From contig NZ_PHOA01000010.1 of assembly GCF_003687455.1 (NCBI RefSeq), positions 1 through 43,421 of the forward strand: a DNA stretch of 43,421 nt. Direction: 5' to 3'. The notes beneath the pieces are model-generated. The model did no database searches, was not told the origin of the DNA, and saw nothing but the letters and a program-made list of their open reading frames with translations. Each line of letters begins with the position of its first letter. Position 1 is the stretch's first letter. Positions 6,735 to 34,221 of this stretch are shown here, one piece after another. This DNA comes from Kocuria tytonicola. Lineage in GTDB: Bacteria > Actinomycetota > Actinomycetes > Actinomycetales > Micrococcaceae. A program made the position numbers and the translations under genes.

Positions 6735-7082
6735 TCAGCCGTTGTGGGCGGCGTAGTACTTGTCCTGGATGTCCTGGTGGATGCGGCCGCGGTCCGAGAC
6801 CTGCAGGCCCTGCTCCTTGGCCCAGGCGCGGATCTTGGGGGTCTCGGGGTTGCCGGAGCGGCTCGGGCGCGTGGTGGTCCCCGAGCTGCGGGCCCCCTTC
6901 GCGGAGGACGTGGCCCGGCGGCCCGCCGCCACGTAGGGGCGCAGCGCGTCACGCAGCTTGGTGGCGTTCTCGGAGCTGAGGTCGATCTCGTACTGGCCGC
7001 CGTCGAGGCCGAAACGCACGGTCTCGTTGGCCTCGCCACCGTCGATGTCGTCTTCCAGGATGATTTTCACGGTCTGAGCCAT
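6735..7082 (-). CDS. lsr2: Nucleoid-associated xenogeneic silencer Lsr2
   Basis: An H-NS-like DNA-bridging protein of 115 residues that silences AT-rich DNA in actinobacteria. The N-terminal dimerisation domain (1-60) begins MAQTVKIILEDDIDGG. A basic linker follows (about 55-80, Ser/Arg/Lys/Thr rich). The C-terminal Ala-Trp-Ala helix region ends with the AT-hook-like RGR in VSDRGRIHQDI. The start is set by GGAGGAG 6-8 nt before ATG 7082. The upstream region is unusually AT-rich for this genome and contains a CRP-like palindrome. Sitting between lysS and clpC matches mycobacterial order. Confidence 0.97.
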   Translation of the reverse strand: MAQTVKIILEDDIDGGEANETVRFGLDGGQYEIDLSSENATKLRDALRPYVAAGRRATSSAKGARSSGTTTRPSRSGNPETPKIRAWAKEQGLQVSDRGRIHQDIQDKYYAAHNG

Positions 7083-7146
7083 GGTCAGCTCCTCCAAACG
7101 CCCCGCGGGCTGTCTCGTCGAATTGTGCGCACTTGCACGTCAATGG

Positions 7147-7162
7147 TGTGAGGTGAAACACA
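7147..7162. promoter_or_regulatory. CRP/GlxR-like palindrome upstream of lsr2
   Basis: TGTGA-GGTGAA-ACACA matches 9 of 10 fixed positions of the TGTGA-N6-TCACA site bound by cAMP receptor proteins in actinobacteria. It lies 65-80 bp before the lsr2 start. No binding evidence is available. Confidence 0.35.
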
Positions 7163-7311
7163 GGATCTCGTCCCGGCTGCCGGACCGTGTATTCCCGCAA
7201 ATGCCGCTGGGATCAACGCGGGGGTGAATACCCGGTTCGCGCGGGGAGAGAGATCTATTGCTGAATCACTGCGTCCATCATTGCACGGCATTGCAGGAAT
7301 GTCATCACGGG

Positions 7312-7587
7312 CTATTTCCCGCGATTGTGGTCCTCGGATGAATCACGAATGGGAATGCTGCCCCGCAGTCCCAGGCCGCGCTGCGCGCGGGGGTTTTCCT
7401 CCGTGCTGCCGAAGGGGGTGTTCTCCCCCTCACGCTCCTGCACCGCGCGGTACCACTGCTCGGCATCCTCCTGGGCGTCCTTCTGGGCACCGCGTTCCGC
7501 CCTGTCGCCGCGCAGCAACCACCGCATGATCAGGTAGAACACCACCCCCACACCGAGAGAGGGGGCGAAGACTGCCAGGTATTCCAT
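7312..7587 (-). CDS. Small single-pass membrane protein downstream of lysS
   Basis: A 91-residue protein of unknown function. The N-terminus is one transmembrane helix (about 3-25, ending FYLIMRWLLRG). A charged, Gln/Glu/Arg-rich cytoplasmic part follows, probably helical (30-55, with AEQWYRAVQEREG), and a disordered tail. Similar short proteins follow lysS in Micrococcaceae as far as I recall. The start ATG 7587 lies 60 bp after the lysS stop, and GGAGAGGATC upstream acts as a Shine-Dalgarno sequence. It could be co-transcribed with lysS. Confidence 0.7.
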   Translation of the reverse strand: MEYLAVFAPSLGVGVVFYLIMRWLLRGDRAERGAQKDAQEDAEQWYRAVQEREGENTPFGSTEENPRAQRGLGLRGSIPIRDSSEDHNRGK

Positions 7588-7647
7588 GGTGGTGATGATC
7601 CTCTCCGGGACTGGACGGTTCCTGGGCGCGGGAATGCCGCGCGGGGC

Positions 7648-9180
7648 TCACTCGGGTTTCATGAGCGGGAAGAGAATGGTTTCCCGGATCCCCAGATCGG
7701 TGAACAGCATGATGAGCCGGTCCAGGCCCAGACCCAGGCCACCCATGGGGGGAGCGCCGTGCTCCAGTGCGCGCAGGAAGTCCTCGTCCAGCTGCATGGC
7801 CTCGTCGTCACCGGCCGCCGCGAGCCGGGACTGCTCCACGAGTCGTTCCCGCTGCACCACGGGGTCCACGAGCTCGGAGAAGGCTGTGCCGCGCTCCATG
7901 CCGCCGATGATGAGGTCCCACGCCTCGATCAGTCCCGGCTCGCTGCGGTGCGGACGCGCGAGGGGCTGGGCGGCCGGCGGGTAGTCGTACACGAACGTGG
8001 GCTGGAGCAGGGTGGGCTCCACGATCTCCTCGAAGAGCTCCATGACGAGCTTCTGCGCATCCCACGCGGGGTTCACGGCGATCCCGCGCTCCGCCGCGAG
8101 CTCCCGCAGCTCCGCGGCAGGGGTCTCGGGCGTGACGGTGCGCCCCACGGCCTCGGACAGGCCCGGGTACACGGGCACCCAGGCCCACTCGCCGAACAGC
8201 TCGATGCGGCCCTGCGGGGTGTCGATGCCCTCCACACCGAGCACGCGGGCGCACTCCTGGATGATCTCCCTGATCCGCTCCGCCATCGTGAACTGGTCCC
8301 CGTAGGCCTCGTACGCCTCCAGGGTGGTGAACTCGGGGCTGTGGGAGGAGTCCACGCCCTCGTTGCGGAAGACCCGGCCGATCTCGAAGACCTTGTCGAT
8401 CCCGCCCACCACGGCGCGCTTGAGGTAGAGCTCCGTGGCGATCCGCAGGGTCATGTCCTGGTCGAACGCGTTGAGGTGGGTCTCGAACGGCCGTGCCGCC
8501 GCGCCGCCGTGCACCAGCTGGAGCATGGGAGTCTCGATCTCCACGTAGCCCTGCTCCTCCATGACGCGGCGCACGGTGCGCGTGATCAGGGAGCGGGTGA
8601 GGACGACGTCGCGCGCCTCCTGGCGCACGATCAGGTCCAGGTAGCGCTGGCGCACCCGGGTCTCCTCGTTGAGCTCCTTGTGCATGGTGGGCAGCGGCCG
8701 CAGCGCCTTGGAGGCCAGGGTCCAGGAGTCCGCCATGACGGAGAGCTCCCCGCGGCGGGAGCTGATGACGCGACCCGTGATGGCCACGAAGTCCCCGAGG
8801 TCCACCACGGACTTCCACTGCGCGAGCGCCTCGTCCCCCACATTGGCCTTGGAGAGCATGGCCTGCAGCCGGGTGCCGTCCCCCTCCTGCACGGTGGCGA
8901 AGCACAGCTTGCCCGTGTTGCGCACGTGCACCACGCGCCCCGCCACGGTGACCACGTGGTCGGTCTCCTCACCGGGCTCCAGGTGGCCGAACTCCTCGCG
9001 CACGCTGGCGAGGGTGGTGGTGCGGTGGACGTCCACCGGGTACGGCTCCATGCCGGAGTCCGCGGCGGCCTGGCGTTTGGCGGCGCGCACGGCCATCTGG
9101 TCGTTGAGTTCGCGCGCGCTCAGCTCCGGATCGGTGCTGGCGGGCTCGGCGGGAACGGTGGTCTCAGGCTGCTCGGTCAC
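7648..9180 (-). CDS. lysS: Lysyl-tRNA synthetase (alternative independent start inside the panC-lysS frame)
   Basis: LysS charges tRNA-Lys with lysine. Starting at GTG 9180 gives 510 residues, the usual class II LysS length. After a disordered N-terminus comes the OB-fold anticodon-binding domain (with VTVAGRVVHVRNTGKLCFAT). The catalytic core carries motif 1 (EEQGYVEIETPML), motif 2 (FEIGRVFRNEGVDSSHSPEF) and motif 3 (GGLGLGLDRLIMLF). No Shine-Dalgarno sequence precedes GTG 9180, but TATCCT ends 8 nt before it. A leaderless lysS mRNA could therefore be made from a promoter inside the frame even though no stop separates it from panC. I cannot decide between this and obligate fusion. Confidence 0.7.
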   Translation of the reverse strand: MTEQPETTVPAEPASTDPELSARELNDQMAVRAAKRQAAADSGMEPYPVDVHRTTTLASVREEFGHLEPGEETDHVVTVAGRVVHVRNTGKLCFATVQEGDGTRLQAMLSKANVGDEALAQWKSVVDLGDFVAITGRVISSRRGELSVMADSWTLASKALRPLPTMHKELNEETRVRQRYLDLIVRQEARDVVLTRSLITRTVRRVMEEQGYVEIETPMLQLVHGGAAARPFETHLNAFDQDMTLRIATELYLKRAVVGGIDKVFEIGRVFRNEGVDSSHSPEFTTLEAYEAYGDQFTMAERIREIIQECARVLGVEGIDTPQGRIELFGEWAWVPVYPGLSEAVGRTVTPETPAAELRELAAERGIAVNPAWDAQKLVMELFEEIVEPTLLQPTFVYDYPPAAQPLARPHRSEPGLIEAWDLIIGGMERGTAFSELVDPVVQRERLVEQSRLAAAGDDEAMQLDEDFLRALEHGAPPMGGLGLGLDRLIMLFTDLGIRETILFPLMKPE

Positions 9181-10053
9181 AGTGGACCAGGATACCGTCC
9201 GCGCTCGGATCCGCATGTTGTCGATCAGCCGGGTGGGCCCCACCCACGCGGCCACGAGCGCGAGCGTCCCGGGAGCGGGCTCCACGAGCGCGAGGTTCGC
9301 GGGGTCCACGGTCACCAGGTAGTCCAGGCGCACGTCGGGCTCGGCGGCCACGCGGCGTCGGGCCTGCTCCAGCGTGAGCTCCCCGGCGGCGAGGGCGCTG
9401 AGCGTGCGGTGCAGCACCAGCGCGTGCCCGGCCTGCTCCGGGGAGAGGTACTGGTTGCGCGAGGACAGCGCGAGGCCCTCCGGGGAGCGGACGATGGGCA
9501 CGGGGCGGATCTCCACCCGGTGGTCGAGATCACGCACCATGCGCTGCATGAGCAGCAGCTGCTGGGCGTCCTTCTCCCCGAAGTAGGCGCGGAACGGGAC
9601 GCCGGGGCCCGGGGCCATGATGGTGAGGAGCTTGCTGACCACCGTCAGTGCGCCGTCGAAGTGCCCGGGCCGGGTGGCGCCCTCCAGGATCGATCCCGCG
9701 GCTCCGGAGGTCACCGACACCACGGGCGTGCCGTCCGGGTACATCTCCCGCACGTCCGGGGCGAACACGAGGTCCACGCCCTCCCGGGCCAGCAGCGCCA
9801 CGTCCTGCTCCAGCTGCCGGGGATAGCTCTCGTAGTCCTCCCCCGGGCCGAACTGCAGCGGGTTCACGAACACCGAGACGACCGCGAGGTCGTTCTCCGC
9901 CCGCGTGCGCCGCGCGATCTCCAGGTGCCCGCGGTGCAGCGCACCCATGGTGGGCAACAGGCCCAGGCTCTCGGCACCGCCCGCCACCCGCTGCGCGATC
10001 GCCTCGCGCAGTCCTGCCACGGTGGTGCACACCACGGGTTCGCCCACGGTCAC
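7648..10053 (-). CDS. panC-lysS: Pantoate-beta-alanine ligase and lysyl-tRNA synthetase in one open frame
   Basis: One uninterrupted frame of 801 codons encodes a whole PanC followed by a whole LysS. The PanC part (residues 1 to about 282) makes pantothenate from pantoate, beta-alanine and ATP. It has PTMGALHRGH (34-43), SVFVNPLQFGPGEDYESYPR, FGEKDAQQLL and RSPEGLALSSRN, and ends at TRLIDNM. About a dozen linker residues join it to LysS. No stop codon separates the two. The GTG start at 10053 overlaps the DUF2520 stop as GTGA, with GAGGACGAGG as Shine-Dalgarno. The order in mycobacteria is panC-panD-coaX-lysS; panD and coaX are absent here. A real fusion and two overlapping gene products (see the lysS entry) are both possible. 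Confidence 0.85.
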   Translation of the reverse strand: MTVGEPVVCTTVAGLREAIAQRVAGGAESLGLLPTMGALHRGHLEIARRTRAENDLAVVSVFVNPLQFGPGEDYESYPRQLEQDVALLAREGVDLVFAPDVREMYPDGTPVVSVTSGAAGSILEGATRPGHFDGALTVVSKLLTIMAPGPGVPFRAYFGEKDAQQLLLMQRMVRDLDHRVEIRPVPIVRSPEGLALSSRNQYLSPEQAGHALVLHRTLSALAAGELTLEQARRRVAAEPDVRLDYLVTVDPANLALVEPAPGTLALVAAWVGPTRLIDNMRIRARTVSWSTVTEQPETTVPAEPASTDPELSARELNDQMAVRAAKRQAAADSGMEPYPVDVHRTTTLASVREEFGHLEPGEETDHVVTVAGRVVHVRNTGKLCFATVQEGDGTRLQAMLSKANVGDEALAQWKSVVDLGDFVAITGRVISSRRGELSVMADSWTLASKALRPLPTMHKELNEETRVRQRYLDLIVRQEARDVVLTRSLITRTVRRVMEEQGYVEIETPMLQLVHGGAAARPFETHLNAFDQDMTLRIATELYLKRAVVGGIDKVFEIGRVFRNEGVDSSHSPEFTTLEAYEAYGDQFTMAERIREIIQECARVLGVEGIDTPQGRIELFGEWAWVPVYPGLSEAVGRTVTPETPAAELRELAAERGIAVNPAWDAQKLVMELFEEIVEPTLLQPTFVYDYPPAAQPLARPHRSEPGLIEAWDLIIGGMERGTAFSELVDPVVQRERLVEQSRLAAAGDDEAMQLDEDFLRALEHGAPPMGGLGLGLDRLIMLFTDLGIRETILFPLMKPE
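9189..9194 (-). promoter_or_regulatory. Possible internal -10 box for lysS
   Basis: On the minus strand TATCCT fits TANNNT, in the junction between the PanC and LysS modules. It predicts transcription starting at 9180-9182, right at the GTG codon. No convincing -35 is seen. Confidence 0.4.
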
Positions 10054-11072
10054 TCCTCGTCCTCGAGCGCGGCCAGCACCGCGCGGTACGTCGTGGCATC
10101 CAGTCTGCCCGAGGTCACCGCGCGGGCCGCCGTCTGCCGCCCCAGCGCCCGGTACCCGGCCAGCAGCTGCGCTCCCGGGCTGGCCCCCGCTGCGGAACGC
10201 ACCTCCGACGGCGCGTGGGCCGCGTCGGCGGCAGGCGCCCGGGCGCCGTGCTCGTCGCGGGCCGCGTCGACCGCGTGCGCTCCCGGGGCGACGCCGCCCT
10301 GACCGGAGAGCTCGCGCAGCGCTGCGACGTGGGCGGCCACGGTGGAGATGTCCCCGCGGGCCACCGGCCCGGTGAGCGCGGACTCCCCCGAGGCCAGGGC
10401 GTTGTCCACCGTGGCGCGCACGAGGGGGCCCAGCACGCGGTCGGGGTGCTCCACACCGATCTCCCCGAGGATCTGCATGGCCTCGCCGAGCACCGTCATC
10501 ACGTGGTTGGAGCCGTGGGCGAGAGCGGCGTGGTACAGCGGGCGGTCGGCCTCCGCAACCACGACGGGCTCGGCCCCCATCTCCACCACGAGCGCCTGGG
10601 CAATGGGGAGCACGGGGGCCGCGGCGGTCACCCCGAAGCTGCAGTCCACGAGCCGCTGCAGGTCCATGCTCAGCCCGGTGAAGGTCATGGCGGGGTGCAC
10701 GGCCAGCCCGATGGCGCCGGCGGAGCGAACGGGTTCCAGGACGTCCGTGCCGAAACGGCCCGCGGTGTGCACCACCAGCTGGCCGGGCTGCCACGCACCG
10801 GTGGCCGCGAGACCGGCCACGAGTCCCGGGAGCTGGTCGTCCGGGACCGCGAGCAGCACGAGCTCGCTGCGCTCCACAATGGTCTCCACGTCCAGCACCG
10901 GGACGTCCGGCAGCAGGGCCGCGGCCCGCTCGTGGCTCTGCGCCGACGACGCGTGGACCCCCACCACGGCGTGGCCCGCCGCCCGCAGCGCGGCCCCCAG
11001 GACCGCACCCACCTTTCCGGCGCTGATGACTCCCACGCCGAGACGGCCGGGACGGTGACTGGGTGAGGACAC
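10050..11072 (-). CDS. Rossmann-like DUF2520 protein linked to pantothenate synthesis
   Basis: A 340-residue NAD(P)-binding protein, homologous to the Rv3603c type. The N-terminal Rossmann domain has the GVGVISAGKVGAVLGAAL nucleotide loop (about residues 12-30). The rest resembles 6-phosphogluconate-dehydrogenase-like or ketopantoate-reductase-like helical domains, with VHPAMTFTG and HGSNHVMTVLGE conserved in DUF2520. An Ala/Gly/Pro-rich insert (around 255-300) looks disordered. It is coupled to panC by a GTGA stop/start overlap. A ketopantoate-reductase-like role is an inference from fold and context. GTG 11072 has AAGGAG about 9 nt upstream. Confidence 0.85.
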   Translation of the reverse strand: MSSPSHRPGRLGVGVISAGKVGAVLGAALRAAGHAVVGVHASSAQSHERAAALLPDVPVLDVETIVERSELVLLAVPDDQLPGLVAGLAATGAWQPGQLVVHTAGRFGTDVLEPVRSAGAIGLAVHPAMTFTGLSMDLQRLVDCSFGVTAAAPVLPIAQALVVEMGAEPVVVAEADRPLYHAALAHGSNHVMTVLGEAMQILGEIGVEHPDRVLGPLVRATVDNALASGESALTGPVARGDISTVAAHVAALRELSGQGGVAPGAHAVDAARDEHGARAPAADAAHAPSEVRSAAGASPGAQLLAGYRALGRQTAARAVTSGRLDATTYRAVLAALEDEE

Positions 11073-11170
11073 GCGAAGACTCCTTGCAGGGGAACGGCCG
11101 GGCGCGCCCGCACCGCAGACGGGATGGTGGTCTGCGCGGCGGGAGCACGTGCGGCCACGGCACGCACAGG

Positions 11171-12916
11171 CTAGCGCACGGTGTCGGGTGCCGGGGCCGC
11201 CGTGCTCCAGGGCCGCTCGGGCGCGCGGGCGCCGACCCGGGCCCTGGCCGCGCGGGCGAGCTGCGTGTGCCGCTCCAGCAGGGCACGGGCGTCCGCGACA
11301 TCCAGGTGGGCCACCGCCGTGGTCACGGAGCCAGGGGTCACGTGCACCGAGAGGTCGCTGAGCCCGAACCGACGCTCCAAAGGCCCCTGGGACAGTGCTG
11401 CGGACTGGGTCTTGTGATGCGGGACCACGCTCGCGTGGCGGGCGAGTCGTCCGCGCCGAAGGACGAGAACCGCCTCGTCCATCGCGAAACCGGTGCGCCG
11501 CCAGGTGAGCGGGTCCAGCCAGCGCGCCCGCCGCGGACTCGTGGTGAAGTTCTCGCCGCCCCCGATTCCGCGGAGCCCCTCGGTCACAAGATCCGTGGGG
11601 GTCAGCTCCAGCGGCAGCACCAGCTCCAGCACGCCGCGGACCTGCTCCCACGTGCCCACGGGCAGCACCACGGAGCCGAGCGTCTCCGTCCCACCGGCCC
11701 CTCCCTTGCCCGCCGTGGTGACCGTGACCCGGTGGCCGCCGAAGAACCGCCACAGCAACGGCGCGGTGACCTCCAGTGCCTGCACCCGGCCGGTGGGGAT
11801 GGTGGAGGAGCGTTCGTTGAACAGCCCCGACCGGGTCCGCACGCCCTCGGGGACCTCGCTCAGGGTGAATCCCCAGCTGCGTTCGAGCCGGGAGTACAGC
11901 CCGGAGACCACGCCCAGCAGGGGCGGGACGGCCGTGGGCAGCACCACGACCAGCGCCTCGGGGAACCACACGGACAGACCCGCCATGAGCAGTGCGAGCA
12001 GCAGCAGCACCACGGCGGGCGGGGAGCACACGAGCGCGAGCAGCACGCGGGCGGTGGGGACCGTGAACACCCGCCGCAGCTCGTCCCGTTCGCTGAGGAT
12101 CCCGTACTTCTGCGCCACCCGGACGTCCACACCCTCGCGGGAGCGCCCGGACCGGGTGCCGGGGGCCGGGTCTGCACCGGCGCTGCCCGCCTCGGCGTCC
12201 GGAACGGCCGCGGGCGACGTCGCCCGGGCCGTCTCCTGCCGCTCGGCGGCACGGTGGGCGGCCACGAGGAGCTGGCTCCGCAGCTCCCGCGCGTGGTCAC
12301 GTCCCAGGTAGGAGAGCTCGAGCACGCTGGAGCCGCCGTCGGCCACGTCGAACTTCAGGGAGGACAGCCCCAGGACGCGGGGCAGGAACCGGCGTTCCAC
12401 GTCGATGCCCTGCACCCGGTCCAGGCGCGCCTGCCGCTGGGTGCGGAAGAGCCAGCCACTGCGAAACCGCACGTGCTCGCCCGTGATCTGATAGCGGGTG
12501 AACCACCAGGACAGCAGGCCCAAACCGATCAGCACCCCCAGCACACCGCACAGCACCGCGAGCCCGAGACCGGCGCCGACCACGCGGACCGCACCGCCCA
12601 CGTCCACCTGGATCGGCTCGTGCTTGACGAAGGACGAGACGACGTCGTCCACGAACGTGTTGGCGAAGCCCCACACCAGCGCCACGAGCAGCAGCCAGCT
12701 GCGCACGAAGGGGGTGAGGAGGTGGACCCGGTGCCACTCGCCGTCCACCTCCCCGCCCGGGGCCGCGGCGTCGCGGGACTGGGGTGCTCCGGGCGCGACG
12801 GCTGGGGCGGATGCCGCAGCCGGGGGTGACGGGGTGCCGGGGTCCGCGGTTCCGCCCCCGGACCTCTCCCAGGGGGCTGCGGGCAGCTCCGGACGGGTCT
12901 CCTCCCCGCCCGTCAC
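11171..12916 (-). CDS. Large PH-domain (bPH2/YdbT-like) membrane protein
   Basis: A 581-residue membrane protein of the bacterial PH-like (DUF304) family, related to B. subtilis YdbT. After a Pro/Ala-rich cytoplasmic N-terminus (1-55) come paired transmembrane helices (about 70-90 and 110-140) and a bPH2 repeat (about 145-225). A disordered Ala/Arg/Thr segment follows, then more transmembrane helices (about 285-345) and two further bPH2 repeats, ending at SVHVTPGSVTTAVAHLDVAD. GTG 12916 overlaps the stop of the upstream PH gene as GTGA, so the two are coupled and may form one complex. The molecular function is unknown; YdbS/YdbT have been tied to stress or bacteriocin resistance. Confidence 0.8.
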   Translation of the reverse strand: MTGGEETRPELPAAPWERSGGGTADPGTPSPPAAASAPAVAPGAPQSRDAAAPGGEVDGEWHRVHLLTPFVRSWLLLVALVWGFANTFVDDVVSSFVKHEPIQVDVGGAVRVVGAGLGLAVLCGVLGVLIGLGLLSWWFTRYQITGEHVRFRSGWLFRTQRQARLDRVQGIDVERRFLPRVLGLSSLKFDVADGGSSVLELSYLGRDHARELRSQLLVAAHRAAERQETARATSPAAVPDAEAGSAGADPAPGTRSGRSREGVDVRVAQKYGILSERDELRRVFTVPTARVLLALVCSPPAVVLLLLALLMAGLSVWFPEALVVVLPTAVPPLLGVVSGLYSRLERSWGFTLSEVPEGVRTRSGLFNERSSTIPTGRVQALEVTAPLLWRFFGGHRVTVTTAGKGGAGGTETLGSVVLPVGTWEQVRGVLELVLPLELTPTDLVTEGLRGIGGGENFTTSPRRARWLDPLTWRRTGFAMDEAVLVLRRGRLARHASVVPHHKTQSAALSQGPLERRFGLSDLSVHVTPGSVTTAVAHLDVADARALLERHTQLARAARARVGARAPERPWSTAAPAPDTVR

Positions 12917-14898: not shown

Positions 14899-15837
14899 TC
14901 AGTCGTGGTCGCGGGGGCGCAGCACCGGCGGGTCGATGCCGAGCCACGCGTGGGCGGTGGCCACCGCGTCGCACGTGCCGCGGACGTCGTGCACGCGCAC
15001 GGCCCACGCTCCCCCGAACGCGGCCAGCGCGCTGATCGCGGCGGTGGCGCCGTCCCGCTCCGTGACCGGCCGGGGTGCGCCGTCCGCCGCGAGCAGTGCG
15101 CCGAGGAAACGCTTGCGGGAGGCCGCCACGAGCACCCTGTTCCCCAGCCCACGGAAGCGGGGCAGGGCGCGCAGCAGCTCCCAGTCCTGCCCGCCGGCCT
15201 TGGCGAACCCCAGCCCGGGGTCCACGACGAGCCGCTCCGGGCGCACGCCGGCCGCGTACAGCCGCTCGCGGACCGCGCACAGCTCGGCGAGCACGTCCGC
15301 AACGGTGTCCTCGTAGTGCGTGAGGGTGGTCATGGTCTGGGGCGTGCCGCGGGAGTGCATGAGCACGTACGGGATGCCGCTCGCGCCCGCGAACTCGACC
15401 ATCTCCGGGCTCACGTTCGTGCCGGAGACGTCGTTGACGATGTGCGCCCCCGCCGCCACGGCCGCCTCCGCGGTCCCGGCGTTGAACGTGTCCGCGCTGA
15501 CGACGACGCCCCTGCGGCTCAGCTCCCGGATCACGGGCAGCACACGGCGCCGCTCCTCGCGCGGGTCCACCCGCTGCGAGTGCGGTCGTGTGGACTCCCC
15601 GCCCACGTCCACAATGTCGGCGCCCTGCTCCGCGAGGCGCAGCCCGTGGGCGATGGCCGCTTCCTCGGAGTCGTGGACCCCGCCGTCGCTGAAGGAGTCG
15701 GGGGTCACGTTGAGCACACCCATCACGAGCGTGCGGTGCTGTGGCAGGGCGTCGAAGGACCCCCATCCGAGACGGTCGCCGTGCGGTGGGGCCGGCGCGT
15801 CCGGACGGGACCCGGCGGCGTCGTGCGGGGCGCTCAC
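14899..15837 (-). CDS. folP: Dihydropteroate synthase
   Basis: FolP joins p-aminobenzoate to the pterin pyrophosphate and is the sulfonamide target. It is a 312-residue TIM barrel with the signature MGVLNVTPDSFSDGG (39-53). Further conserved stretches are VDVGGESTRP, the central NDVSG strand, VVDPGLGFAK (phosphate site), and the ending VRVHDVRG. The N-terminal 30 residues are an Asp/Pro/Ala-rich extension. GTG 15837 lies two bases after the folE stop, so translation is probably coupled. Confidence 0.96.
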   Translation of the reverse strand: MSAPHDAAGSRPDAPAPPHGDRLGWGSFDALPQHRTLVMGVLNVTPDSFSDGGVHDSEEAAIAHGLRLAEQGADIVDVGGESTRPHSQRVDPREERRRVLPVIRELSRRGVVVSADTFNAGTAEAAVAAGAHIVNDVSGTNVSPEMVEFAGASGIPYVLMHSRGTPQTMTTLTHYEDTVADVLAELCAVRERLYAAGVRPERLVVDPGLGFAKAGGQDWELLRALPRFRGLGNRVLVAASRKRFLGALLAADGAPRPVTERDGATAAISALAAFGGAWAVRVHDVRGTCDAVATAHAWLGIDPPVLRPRDHD

Positions 15838-15839
15838 GG

Positions 15840-16487
15840 TCAGTGACCCGACGCGATCAGGTTCATGGCCTCCGCGCGGGTGGCGGGGTTGCGCAGCTGG
15901 CCCCGCACCGCGGACGTGACCGTCTTAGCCCCGGGCTTGCGGACCCCGCGCATGGACATGCACAGGTGCTCGCACTCGACCACCACGATGGCCCCGGCCG
16001 GGTGCAGGTGCTCCACGATGGCCTCGACCACCTGGGTGGTGAGCCGCTCCTGGACCTGCGGGCGCCTGGCGTAGAGGTCCACGAGCCGCGCGAGCTTCGA
16101 CAGCCCCGTGACCTTGCCCTCCGGACCCGGGATGTAGCCCACGTGCGCCACGCCGTGGAACGGCACCAGGTGGTGCTCGCACGTGGAGTAGAACGGGACG
16201 TCACGCACCAGCACCATCTCCGAGTGGCCGATGTCGAAGGAGGTGGCGAGCAGCTCCGCGGGGTCCTCGTGCAGGCCCGCGAAGACCTCGGCGTAGGAGC
16301 GGGCCACACGGGCAGGGGTGTCCCGCAGCCCATTGCGGTCCGGGTCCTCGCCCACGGCCAGCAGGATCTCCCGCACGGCCGCGGCAATGCGCGGCTGGTC
16401 GATGGCCGGGGACACGCCCTCACCGGAGTGCTCGGCGAAGGACCCGGAGACGGGTTCCGGGGTCTCGTGCAGGGGCGGGGGCGCCAT
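15840..16487 (-). CDS. folE: GTP cyclohydrolase I
   Basis: FolE opens the folate pathway by converting GTP to dihydroneopterin triphosphate. The 215 residues have zinc ligands Cys103 and His106 in [12 protein letters not shown] and a Cys at 172 or 176 in [11 protein letters not shown]. The [10 protein letters not shown] and [10 protein letters not shown] segments match this family. The ATG directly follows the ftsH stop (TGAATG), and GGGAGA within the ftsH tail is its Shine-Dalgarno sequence. This makes ftsH-folE a tight operon. Confidence 0.97.
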
Positions 16488-31261: not shown

Positions 31262-32263
31262 TCACTGTCCTTTCAGGTTGTCGACCCACGAACGGGCCTG
31301 GATGAATGCGGCGTCGCTGTGCTGCGAGGCCACGGGTACCGCGCGCTCGTCGGCGCGGGGGTAGGAACCGAGGAACCGGGTGCGGGGACAGATCCGGCGC
31401 ACGCCCATGAGGGCGTCCGCCACACGGTCGTCCTGGATGTGCCCGTCGATGTCCACGGAGAAGAAGTAGTCGCCCAGGTGGGTCTTGGTGGGGCGGGACT
31501 CGATCCGGGTGAGGTTGACCCCCCGGGTGGCGAACTGCTCGAGGATGTCCAGCAGCGCACCGGGGCGGTCCTCCCACAGGGGCACCACCAGGGAGGTCTT
31601 GTCCGCCCCCGTGGGTGCGGGCATGGGGGCGTCCGGGCGGGCCACGAGCACGAAGCGTGTGACGGCCTGCTTGTTGTCCCCGATGTCCTCGGCCAGCACG
31701 TGCAGCTCGGGGTGCTGCTCGACCACCACGGGCGAGCACACGGCGGCATCGTAGCCGAGGCCGTCGGTGCTCACTCCCCCGGCGCCGTCGAGCATGGCCA
31801 CCGCGGAGGCCGCCGTGGAGGGGGCGGGCACGTAGGCCACCTCGGGAAGGTTCTCCGCAACCCAGCGGCGGATCTGCGCCCACGCGACCGTGTGGGTGGA
31901 GATGGTGCGGACCTCGGCGAGCTCGGTCCCGGCCGGGGCCACGAGCGTGAACCGGATGGGCACCACGATCTCGCGCAGGATCCGCAGCTCCGCCCCGAAG
32001 GAGACGTCGTCCAGGGTGGCGGTCACCCCGCCCTCCACCGAGTTCTCGATGGGCACCACCGCCGCGTCCACACGTTCCTCACGGACGGCCGCGAGCGCGG
32101 CGGGCACCGAGCTCATGGGGGTGCGCACGGCGGCGTCGGCCCCCGGGACCTGCATGAGCGCCGCCTCGGTGAACGTGCCCGCGGGCCCCAGAAAGGCGTA
32201 CTGACGGGCGTGTGGCCCCGGATCCGCAGGACCCGAGGCCACGCCGGACAGAGCTGCGTTCAC
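31262..32263 (-). CDS. pheA: Prephenate dehydratase
   Basis: PheA turns prephenate into phenylpyruvate for phenylalanine synthesis. The 333 residues contain a catalytic PDT domain (PAGTFTEAAL near the start, PIENSVEGGV, and VTRFVLVAR with the catalytic Thr-Arg-Phe). A C-terminal ACT domain for Phe feedback follows (TSLVVPLWEDRPGALLDILE, with IESRP). GTG 32263 overlaps the rhodanese stop as GTGA. Confidence 0.95.
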   Translation of the reverse strand: MNAALSGVASGPADPGPHARQYAFLGPAGTFTEAALMQVPGADAAVRTPMSSVPAALAAVREERVDAAVVPIENSVEGGVTATLDDVSFGAELRILREIVVPIRFTLVAPAGTELAEVRTISTHTVAWAQIRRWVAENLPEVAYVPAPSTAASAVAMLDGAGGVSTDGLGYDAAVCSPVVVEQHPELHVLAEDIGDNKQAVTRFVLVARPDAPMPAPTGADKTSLVVPLWEDRPGALLDILEQFATRGVNLTRIESRPTKTHLGDYFFSVDIDGHIQDDRVADALMGVRRICPRTRFLGSYPRADERAVPVASQHSDAAFIQARSWVDNLKGQ

Positions 32264-32610
32264 AGAACGCGCGCCGCCTCGCCCGTCTCGGAGACCATCG
32301 GCTTATCGGCGTCCGCCCACGCACCCATGCCGCCCAGCACGTTCACGGGGTCGTAGCCGTACTGCGCGAGGTACGCCGTGGCGCGCAGCGCGCGACCGCC
32401 GGAGCGGCAGATCACGTAGACGTCCTGGTCCAGCGGCACCTCCTCGGTGCGCTCCGCGAGCTGGGAGAGCGGCAGGTGCTGGGCGCCGTCGATGTGCCCG
32501 GCATCCCACTCGTCCTGCTCGCGCACGTCCAGGACGGGGGCACCCTCGGGGATCTCGTCCACGGTGGCGGACGGCAGGTTGTTCACGTTGTCCACGGCGT
32601 TCTCCATCAT
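32260..32610 (-). CDS. Single-domain rhodanese-like sulfurtransferase
   Basis: A 116-residue rhodanese domain. The active-site loop is CRSGGR with Cys68 as the persulfide nucleophile, preceded by the VLDVREQDEWDAGHIDGA motif. It moves sulfur to an unknown acceptor. ATG 32610 is used; a GTG three codons earlier (32619) is possible. No Shine-Dalgarno sequence is obvious, and TAAGGT (32638-32643, minus) may be its -10. It is coupled to pheA by a 4-bp overlap, an odd pairing functionally. Confidence 0.9.
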   Translation of the reverse strand: MMENAVDNVNNLPSATVDEIPEGAPVLDVREQDEWDAGHIDGAQHLPLSQLAERTEEVPLDQDVYVICRSGGRALRATAYLAQYGYDPVNVLGGMGAWADADKPMVSETGEAARVL

Positions 32611-32727: not shown

Positions 32728-34221
32728 TCAGCGCGCCTCGGTCCGCGGGGCCTCCTCCACGTCGTCCTCCTCGCCGGTGGTCGTGAGCTCGGGCAGGCCG
32801 TTCTTCGCCACGTGGCGCTTGGAGAACTCGTAGCCGATGTTGGTGGCCACGAGGATCAGCACGCCCGCCAGCAGGCTGTAGTACCAGTGCGGGTTGGAGA
32901 GGTCGAACATGATGTAGAGCGAGAGGACGCTCAGGAACACCAGGCACACCCAGTTGGTCACGGGCGCGCCGGGCATCTTGAAGTGCACGCCCGGAAGGAG
33001 TCCGCGGGAGACCTGGCGGCGGTAGCCCAGGTGGGACACGAAGATCGAGATCCACCCGAAGAGCACGAACACCGAGCAGGCGCTGAGCACCACCTCGAAC
33101 GCGTCCGAGGCGCCCAGCACGTAGATCAGCGCGATGCCCAGCAGGTCGAAGCCGAAGATGCAGACCAGCGCGCCGGAGGGCACACCGCGCTCCGAGACCT
33201 TGGACATCACCTCGGGGGCCTGTCTGTGGGCGGCCAGGTTCCGCAGCAGGCGCACGCACGCGTACAGGGTGGCGTTCACGCCGGAGACTGCCGCGGTGAG
33301 CACCACGAAGTTCATGATGCCCGCGAGCGCCGGGATGTTCAGGGAGGACAGGGCGGTCACGAACGGGGACTGCTCCCCGGAGTACTGGTCCGTGGGCAGC
33401 AGCATGGACAGCACCAGGATGGAGCCGATGTAGAAGATGGCAATGCGCAGCACCACGGAGTTGATGGCCTTGGGCATGGACTTCTCGGGATCCTTGGCCT
33501 CACCCGCGGAGACGCCCACGATCTCGATGGCGGAGAACGAGAACACCACGCCGGTCATCACGACCACGAGCACCAGCACCCCCTGGGGGGCGAAGCCCTG
33601 GTTCCACAGGTTGCTCACGGACGCGGCCGTGGGGGCGTGGAAGATGTCCCCGGCCACCACCAGGATGATGCCCGCGGCCAGGAACAGCAGGATGGCGAGC
33701 ACCTTGATGGCCGCGGCCCACGTCTCGATGAAACCGTAGAGCTTCACGCTCAGCAGGTTGCAGCCCACGATCACCATGGCGGCCACGAGCGAGGGGATCC
33801 ACCCCGGGATCTCCGGCCACCAGAACTGCACGTACACCGCGAGCGCCGCGATCTCGCCCACGCCCGCCACGGCGGAGAGCGCCACGTAGATCCACCCGGT
33901 CATGAACGCGAACCGGTCCCCCACGAACTCGCGTGCGTAGGACACCCACGCGCCCGTGGTGGGGCGGTGGATCACGAGTTCCCCGAGGGCCCGCATGAGC
34001 AGGTACACCACGGTGGAGACCACCAGGTAGGACACGATCAGGGCGGGACCGGCCGCGGCGAGACGTCCGCCGATGCCCAGGAACAGGCCCACGCCGATGG
34101 CACCGCCGATGCCGATCATCTGGATCTGGAAGTTGCCCAGGGACTTCTTGTACCCCTGGTCACCCCGTTCCTGGTAGACGGGCATGGGGCCGGTGGCCGG
34201 TGCCTGGGGATCGAAGGGCAT
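32728..34221 (-). CDS. APC-family amino-acid permease
   Basis: A 497-residue transporter of the amino acid-polyamine-organocation superfamily, AAT (proline/aromatic/GABA permease) group. The first helix carries the GIGGAIGVGLFLGIG binding loop, and about 12 helices follow. The SFSAIEIVGVSAGEAKDPEK motif after helix 6-7 and EPEKSMPKAI-like sequence are typical. The exact amino acid cannot be read. ATG 34221 has CAGGAG 6 nt upstream, the same AGGAGAACCCATG context as the ThDP enzyme. It is divergent from amidohydrolase 1, with short tandem repeats in its predicted leader. Confidence 0.92.
   Translation of the reverse strand: MPFDPQAPATGPMPVYQERGDQGYKKSLGNFQIQMIGIGGAIGVGLFLGIGGRLAAAGPALIVSYLVVSTVVYLLMRALGELVIHRPTTGAWVSYAREFVGDRFAFMTGWIYVALSAVAGVGEIAALAVYVQFWWPEIPGWIPSLVAAMVIVGCNLLSVKLYGFIETWAAAIKVLAILLFLAAGIILVVAGDIFHAPTAASVSNLWNQGFAPQGVLVLVVVMTGVVFSFSAIEIVGVSAGEAKDPEKSMPKAINSVVLRIAIFYIGSILVLSMLLPTDQYSGEQSPFVTALSSLNIPALAGIMNFVVLTAAVSGVNATLYACVRLLRNLAAHRQAPEVMSKVSERGVPSGALVCIFGFDLLGIALIYVLGASDAFEVVLSACSVFVLFGWISIFVSHLGYRRQVSRGLLPGVHFKMPGAPVTNWVCLVFLSVLSLYIMFDLSNPHWYYSLLAGVLILVATNIGYEFSKRHVAKNGLPELTTTGEEDDVEEAPRTEAR

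Follow-up and report, generated by a model that had tools for sequence, protein, structure and literature searches.

We found that panC and lysS of Kocuria tytonicola lie in one uninterrupted reading frame in the window, by which we mean the whole 43,421-nucleotide stretch of DNA analysed, and that the stop codon which closes panC in its relatives is missing from the junction. The explanation that we consider probable is that this lineage has lost the panC stop codon; panC would thereby be joined to lysS, so that a fusion protein of about 88 kDa (at about 110 Da per residue) is made from the panC message, while free LysS is made from a promoter of its own. If this is real, two adjacent housekeeping genes have been fused by one base change, and the free downstream enzyme is still supplied through its own leaderless promoter.

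Results

Structure of the open frame

The frame runs on the minus strand from a GTG at 10053 to a stop at 7650-7648 and contains 801 codons without an internal stop. In this respect the preliminary description, which had reported a single uninterrupted PanC and LysS frame of this length with no stop codon between two complete domain sets, was confirmed by translation of the frame and by searches of Pfam and NCBIfam, with PanC complete in residues 1-282 and LysS complete in residues 292-801. The Pantoate_ligase profile of Pfam matched residues 8-280 (E 9.2e-89, profile positions 2-267 of 268), and the OB-fold and tRNA-synt_2 profiles matched residues 368-446 and 462-798, the latter over profile positions 1-307 of 308. 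Each half also scored above the curated cut-off of its NCBIfam family and was thereby recognised as a full-length enzyme: TIGR00018 (panC) gave 269.8 bits against 212.75 over residues 8-282, and TIGR00499 (lysS_bact) gave 473 bits against 427.6 over residues 315-800. From the GTG at 9180 onward, LysS is 92.5% identical to that of genome G025. The linker had been put at about a dozen codons, and its actual length is 9 codons (9207-9181).

Table 1 Features of the panC-lysS region of the window
Feature	Coordinates	Strand	Basis
PanC-LysS open frame, 801 codons	7648..10053	-	Frame translation, Pfam, NCBIfam
panC, codons 1-282, pantoate--beta-alanine ligase	9208..10053	-	PF02569, E 9.2e-89; TIGR00018 above cut-off; sole PF02569 match in the genome
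Former panC stop, CGA	9205..9207	-	Comparison with the seven closest relatives
Spacer of 9 codons (RARTVSWST), PanC end to LysS start	9181..9207	-	Translation
TATCCT, probable -10 element of lysS (TANNNT ending 8 nt upstream of the GTG)	9189..9194	-	Conserved spacing across loci
lysS, GTG start 9180, 510 aa, lysine--tRNA ligase	7648..9180	-	PF00152, PF01336; TIGR00499 above cut-off
Rossmann-like/DUF2520 gene, ORF upstream of panC	10050..12029	-	PF10727, PF10728

The stop of the upstream DUF2520 gene overlaps the panC GTG. The panC-lysS frame itself stays open upstream as far as 11301, where it crosses the DUF2520 gene in a different frame; a triple fusion that includes this gene was rejected on that ground. 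Openness alone is weak evidence, because long open frames are common at the G+C content of this region (68-78% in 500-base steps from 7500 to 11300), and an open frame of 847 codons is found on the opposite strand at the same place. The panC-lysS frame stands out from this background because it lacks a conserved TGA at a defined position.

A profile search of the genome gave one match to PF02569 and three to PF00152, the latter being the lysS of the window, a LysX on contig C192 and a third protein on contig C209, which shares about 30% identity with LysS along part of its length. Among the sequences of the PDB (best 60 of 67 matched sequences), none spans both the PanC and the LysS half.

The junction in related genomes

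Matches were called spanning when they started at query residue 30 or before and ended at residue 797 or beyond. The genus search (27 genomes) gave ten such matches, nine with one or two internal TGA codons and that of the window with none. In the family search, 388 of 395 genomes matched at 1e-150, and among the matches listed 46 were spanning, 45 of them with at least one stop; the nine other matches of the genus are included in these 45. In the order search, 47 of 248 genomes matched at 1e-200 (201 had no match at this threshold), and 18 of the 19 spanning matches had at least one stop, with G083 and G056 counted in both the family and the order search. The remaining genomes match in pieces or fall below the threshold and are uninformative. 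A search for relatives that align to PanC and LysS over their full length, as suggested in the preliminary description, thus returned an internal stop in every other listed spanning match (all 9 from the genus, all 45 listed for the family and all 18 for the order), so that a conserved PanC-LysS fusion family was not found in these searches. The change is a singleton, the window being the sole stopless case among the spanning matches listed. One partial match (G006, residues 259-801) also lacks a stop, and there panC is a separate match whose TGA lies 56 nt before the lysS start in a different phase.

At the level of individual loci, 41 of 109 could be assessed, the others being excluded because one gene was absent from the stretch (42), the genes were not adjacent (3), the locus was a duplicate (11) or there was no box-marked GTG (12). 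One of the 41 is fused, namely that of the window, and 40 have a panC stop. The two genes are in phase in 16 loci, 12 of which have no further stop between them, and the seven closest relatives are among these 12. In these seven, which are 81-87% identical to the window in PanC and 87-93% in LysS, panC ends in TGA and lysS follows in the same phase, after 24 nt in five genomes and 18 nt in two, with no further stop; the loss of a single stop therefore suffices to join the genes. Separate panC and lysS genes in Kocuria and other Micrococcaceae share with the window their order, the spacing of 18 or 24 nt, a TANNNT box and the lysS GTG, and differ from it in having a panC stop codon. The neighbourhood of panC, lysS and lsr2 is also described for Mycobacterium marinum (PMC13354803).

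The junction reads ATC TGA GCG in five of the seven closest relatives and ATC CGA GCG CGG in the window, and two genomes (G009 and G008) with ATC TGA GCG CGG are one base from the window within these nine bases. The other pattern is that of G017 and G026, in which CCC GCG or CCC GCC stands at the former stop and a TGA follows two codons later. PanC of these two genomes (loci L010 and L011) gains a C-terminal PA, so the end of PanC is prone to change within this clade.

Two irregular loci were noted during the comparison. At L030 (contig C101 of G001, a draft that is 79% complete), lysS matches as two segments (residues 286-410 and 416-801) that differ in frame, as if frameshifted. At L044 (WNZI01000005.1), a record titled Vibrio cholerae strain 35D carries a panC-lysS pair of the Micrococcaceae type, and the record looks mislabelled or contaminated.

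The lysS start and its probable promoter

After exact copies were merged and two loci (L030 and L031) whose match fell short of the lysS start were dropped, 96 distinct loci remained. In 83 of them, including the window, a TANNNT motif lies upstream of an in-frame GTG with a gap of exactly 8 nt; in the other 13 it is absent at this spacing. Shuffled upstream sequences gave a mean of 1.6 and a maximum of 5 loci with TANNNT at spacing 8; at the other spacings from 3 to 30 the motif was found in 0-4 loci, and at spacing 2 in 11 loci. A Shine-Dalgarno-like motif is present in 3 of the 83 box-bearing loci. Because the spacing of TANNNT and GTG is conserved and Shine-Dalgarno motifs are rare, the lysS start is probably leaderless, and the gene is probably transcribed independently of panC. 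In the window the box (TATCCT, 9194-9189) is intact; it lies inside the fusion frame, where it overlaps the codons for VSW.

Leaderless actinobacterial genes have been described with TANNNT about 12 bp upstream of the start codon (PMC3160421). Of the tRNA synthetase genes of Mycobacterium tuberculosis that have a primary start site, 7 of 14 are reported as leaderless, with no mention of lysS, and that study found no conserved -35 (PMC3898074). The layout of lysS, with TANNNT at a fixed spacing and almost no Shine-Dalgarno motifs, is the one common to such genes, and for lysS we infer it from conservation across loci. A generic sigma-70 scan, which needs a -35 hexamer, found no site in 8900-12100. 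A search for terminator-like sites in this interval was also negative, so the panC message probably continues into lysS. In the Micrococcaceae as a whole, lysS would appear to be a family-wide leaderless aminoacyl-tRNA synthetase gene; a literature search by title and abstract found nothing on leaderless lysS.

Discussion

The course of events that we propose begins with the change of the panC stop from TGA to CGA (9207-9205), a codon that a single base separates from the panC stop in five of the seven closest relatives. Ribosomes on the message of the panC operon would then read through the spacer into lysS and produce the PanC-LysS protein of about 88 kDa. In parallel, lysS would be transcribed from the TATCCT promoter as a leaderless mRNA beginning at the GTG at 9180 and translated into free LysS, which is also to be expected because lysS keeps both the intact conserved box and this GTG. 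The cell would therefore contain the fusion and free LysS, with little or no free PanC. The reading frame, the missing stop, the two complete domain sets and the conserved lysS box and start are observed in the window and its comparison with relatives; the fusion and the leaderless product are predicted from them. PanC in the window is under ordinary constraint, with dN 0.093 and dS 0.452 against G025, compared with 0.098 and 0.449 between G025 and G013. We found no signs of selection for the fusion, which is probably tolerated and not selected. The lengthening of proteins at the C-terminus by a shift or loss of the stop codon has been described (Vakhrusheva et al. 2011, J Mol Evol, as cited in PMC4494051); downstream sequence likewise joins the protein in such cases, and the window appears to add a whole neighbouring gene in frame. 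No report of a PanC-LysS fusion was found in the open-licence literature, searched mostly by title, and a search by title found nothing on panC of Kocuria. The finding is of modest interest unless other isolates share the fusion. Automatic annotation could call a "bifunctional" enzyme at this locus.

The CGA may instead be an error of sequencing or assembly, or a mutation in one cultured stock, in which case the organism has TGA and makes two separate proteins. We regard this as unlikely, although the state is a singleton and the assembly is a draft of 239 contigs. A survey of stop-codon loss in yeast and fly set singletons aside as potential errors and traced its one putative gene fusion to a replicated assembly error (PMC4494051). 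The genome has a completeness of 100 and a contamination of 0.35, the contig looks otherwise clean, and the tree neighbours of the window, G017 and G026, also lack a stop at the same codon. We compared the window with G025 and took 19 matches of at least 80% identity from 33 rows, 10 of which were flagged (the other rows include picks on the opposite strand or in an incorrect frame, one of which displaced panC). The 19 matches contain no frameshift and no second stop loss: 15 end at the same stop without an internal stop, one runs off the contig, and three were flagged for ordinary causes, two because a stop precedes the probable start and one because its end is shifted. This shifted end, at 32758, is 18 codons earlier than in G025 and agrees with G013. 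The internal stops in 31265-32509 and 14911-16182 were considered as signs of a poor contig and rejected, as they precede the probable starts; 31262-32263 is an open ORF, which also speaks against a contig fault in the first case. An internal stop in 6744-7163 was rejected likewise in view of an open ORF at 6735-7097. Should the base call nevertheless be wrong, the locus would illustrate that singleton fusions have to be checked against reads.

The stop may also be older in its loss than the singleton state suggests. A tree built on most of panC, the junction and lysS groups the window with G017 and G026; the support for this, 89/95, is below the level starred by the tool. The loss could thus date back to an ancestor that the window shares with the group of G017 and G026 (K. 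varians), in which the genes would have been fused, and this group would then have regained a stop two codons downstream. All three genomes lack TGA at the ancestral codon, as this history would have it, and by a hand count about 5 substitutions suffice with a fused ancestor, whereas independent losses need about 6. This advantage is however one step in nine bases; an insertion of 6 nt before the TGA and a deletion of 6 nt after it explain the junction of G017 and G026 equally well, and the grouping is unstarred in a tree whose columns include the junction itself. We consider such an older loss quite doubtful. The tree hints weakly that the stop was already unstable before the window and the K. 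varians group diverged, and the history may comprise more than one recent substitution.

An extension of this history, to which we give little credence, is that of a young natural fusion: the stop would have been lost in the shared ancestor, the loss reversed in the K. varians group and kept in the species of the window, and the locus would now yield both a fused PanC-LysS and free LysS, the latter through an internal leaderless promoter. If true, this would be a gene fusion caught at birth and made harmless by a promoter inside the fusion frame.

The stop-codon loss that we prefer leaves in place one part of what had been proposed for this locus in the preliminary description. The PanC-LysS reading frame is present, and a fusion is expected from the panC message if the base call is right; a functional tie between CoA precursor synthesis and translation is not supported, as the frame occurs in a single genome among the spanning matches listed, is one base from the stop of its relatives and leaves the lysS box and start intact. 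That the protein is a settled bifunctional enzyme is highly improbable, since lysS has its own conserved start, with no need of a fusion for LysS supply, and the spacer corresponds to the former intergenic sequence, promoter box included, now part of the frame; in its favour are the completeness of both domain sets, the named families in which each partner is fused at the same terminus (NF010004 and NF002821), and a thinkable chemical link, as a review reports that CoA-SH can be aminoacylated by class II LysRS and that the PanC fold is similar to that of class I synthetases (PMC5370406).

These two families share their arrangement with the window and differ from it in the partner. In the PanC/(d)CMP kinase family (NF010004) the second enzyme is likewise C-terminal to PanC, the partner being CMP kinase, and the window frame reached 258.1 bits against a cut-off of 524, matching the PanC part alone (profile positions 5-284 of 514). 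In LysX (NF002821) a foreign module is likewise N-terminal to LysRS, the partner being lysylphosphatidylglycerol synthetase, and the frame reached 651.1 bits against a cut-off of 742, matching the LysRS part alone (profile positions 605-1101 of 1102). The same genome carries a LysX-type fusion at another locus (L032, on contig C192 of G000), which scored 1462.3 bits against this cut-off of 742 in a 5'-truncated stretch and is the second LysRS-like module of the genome.
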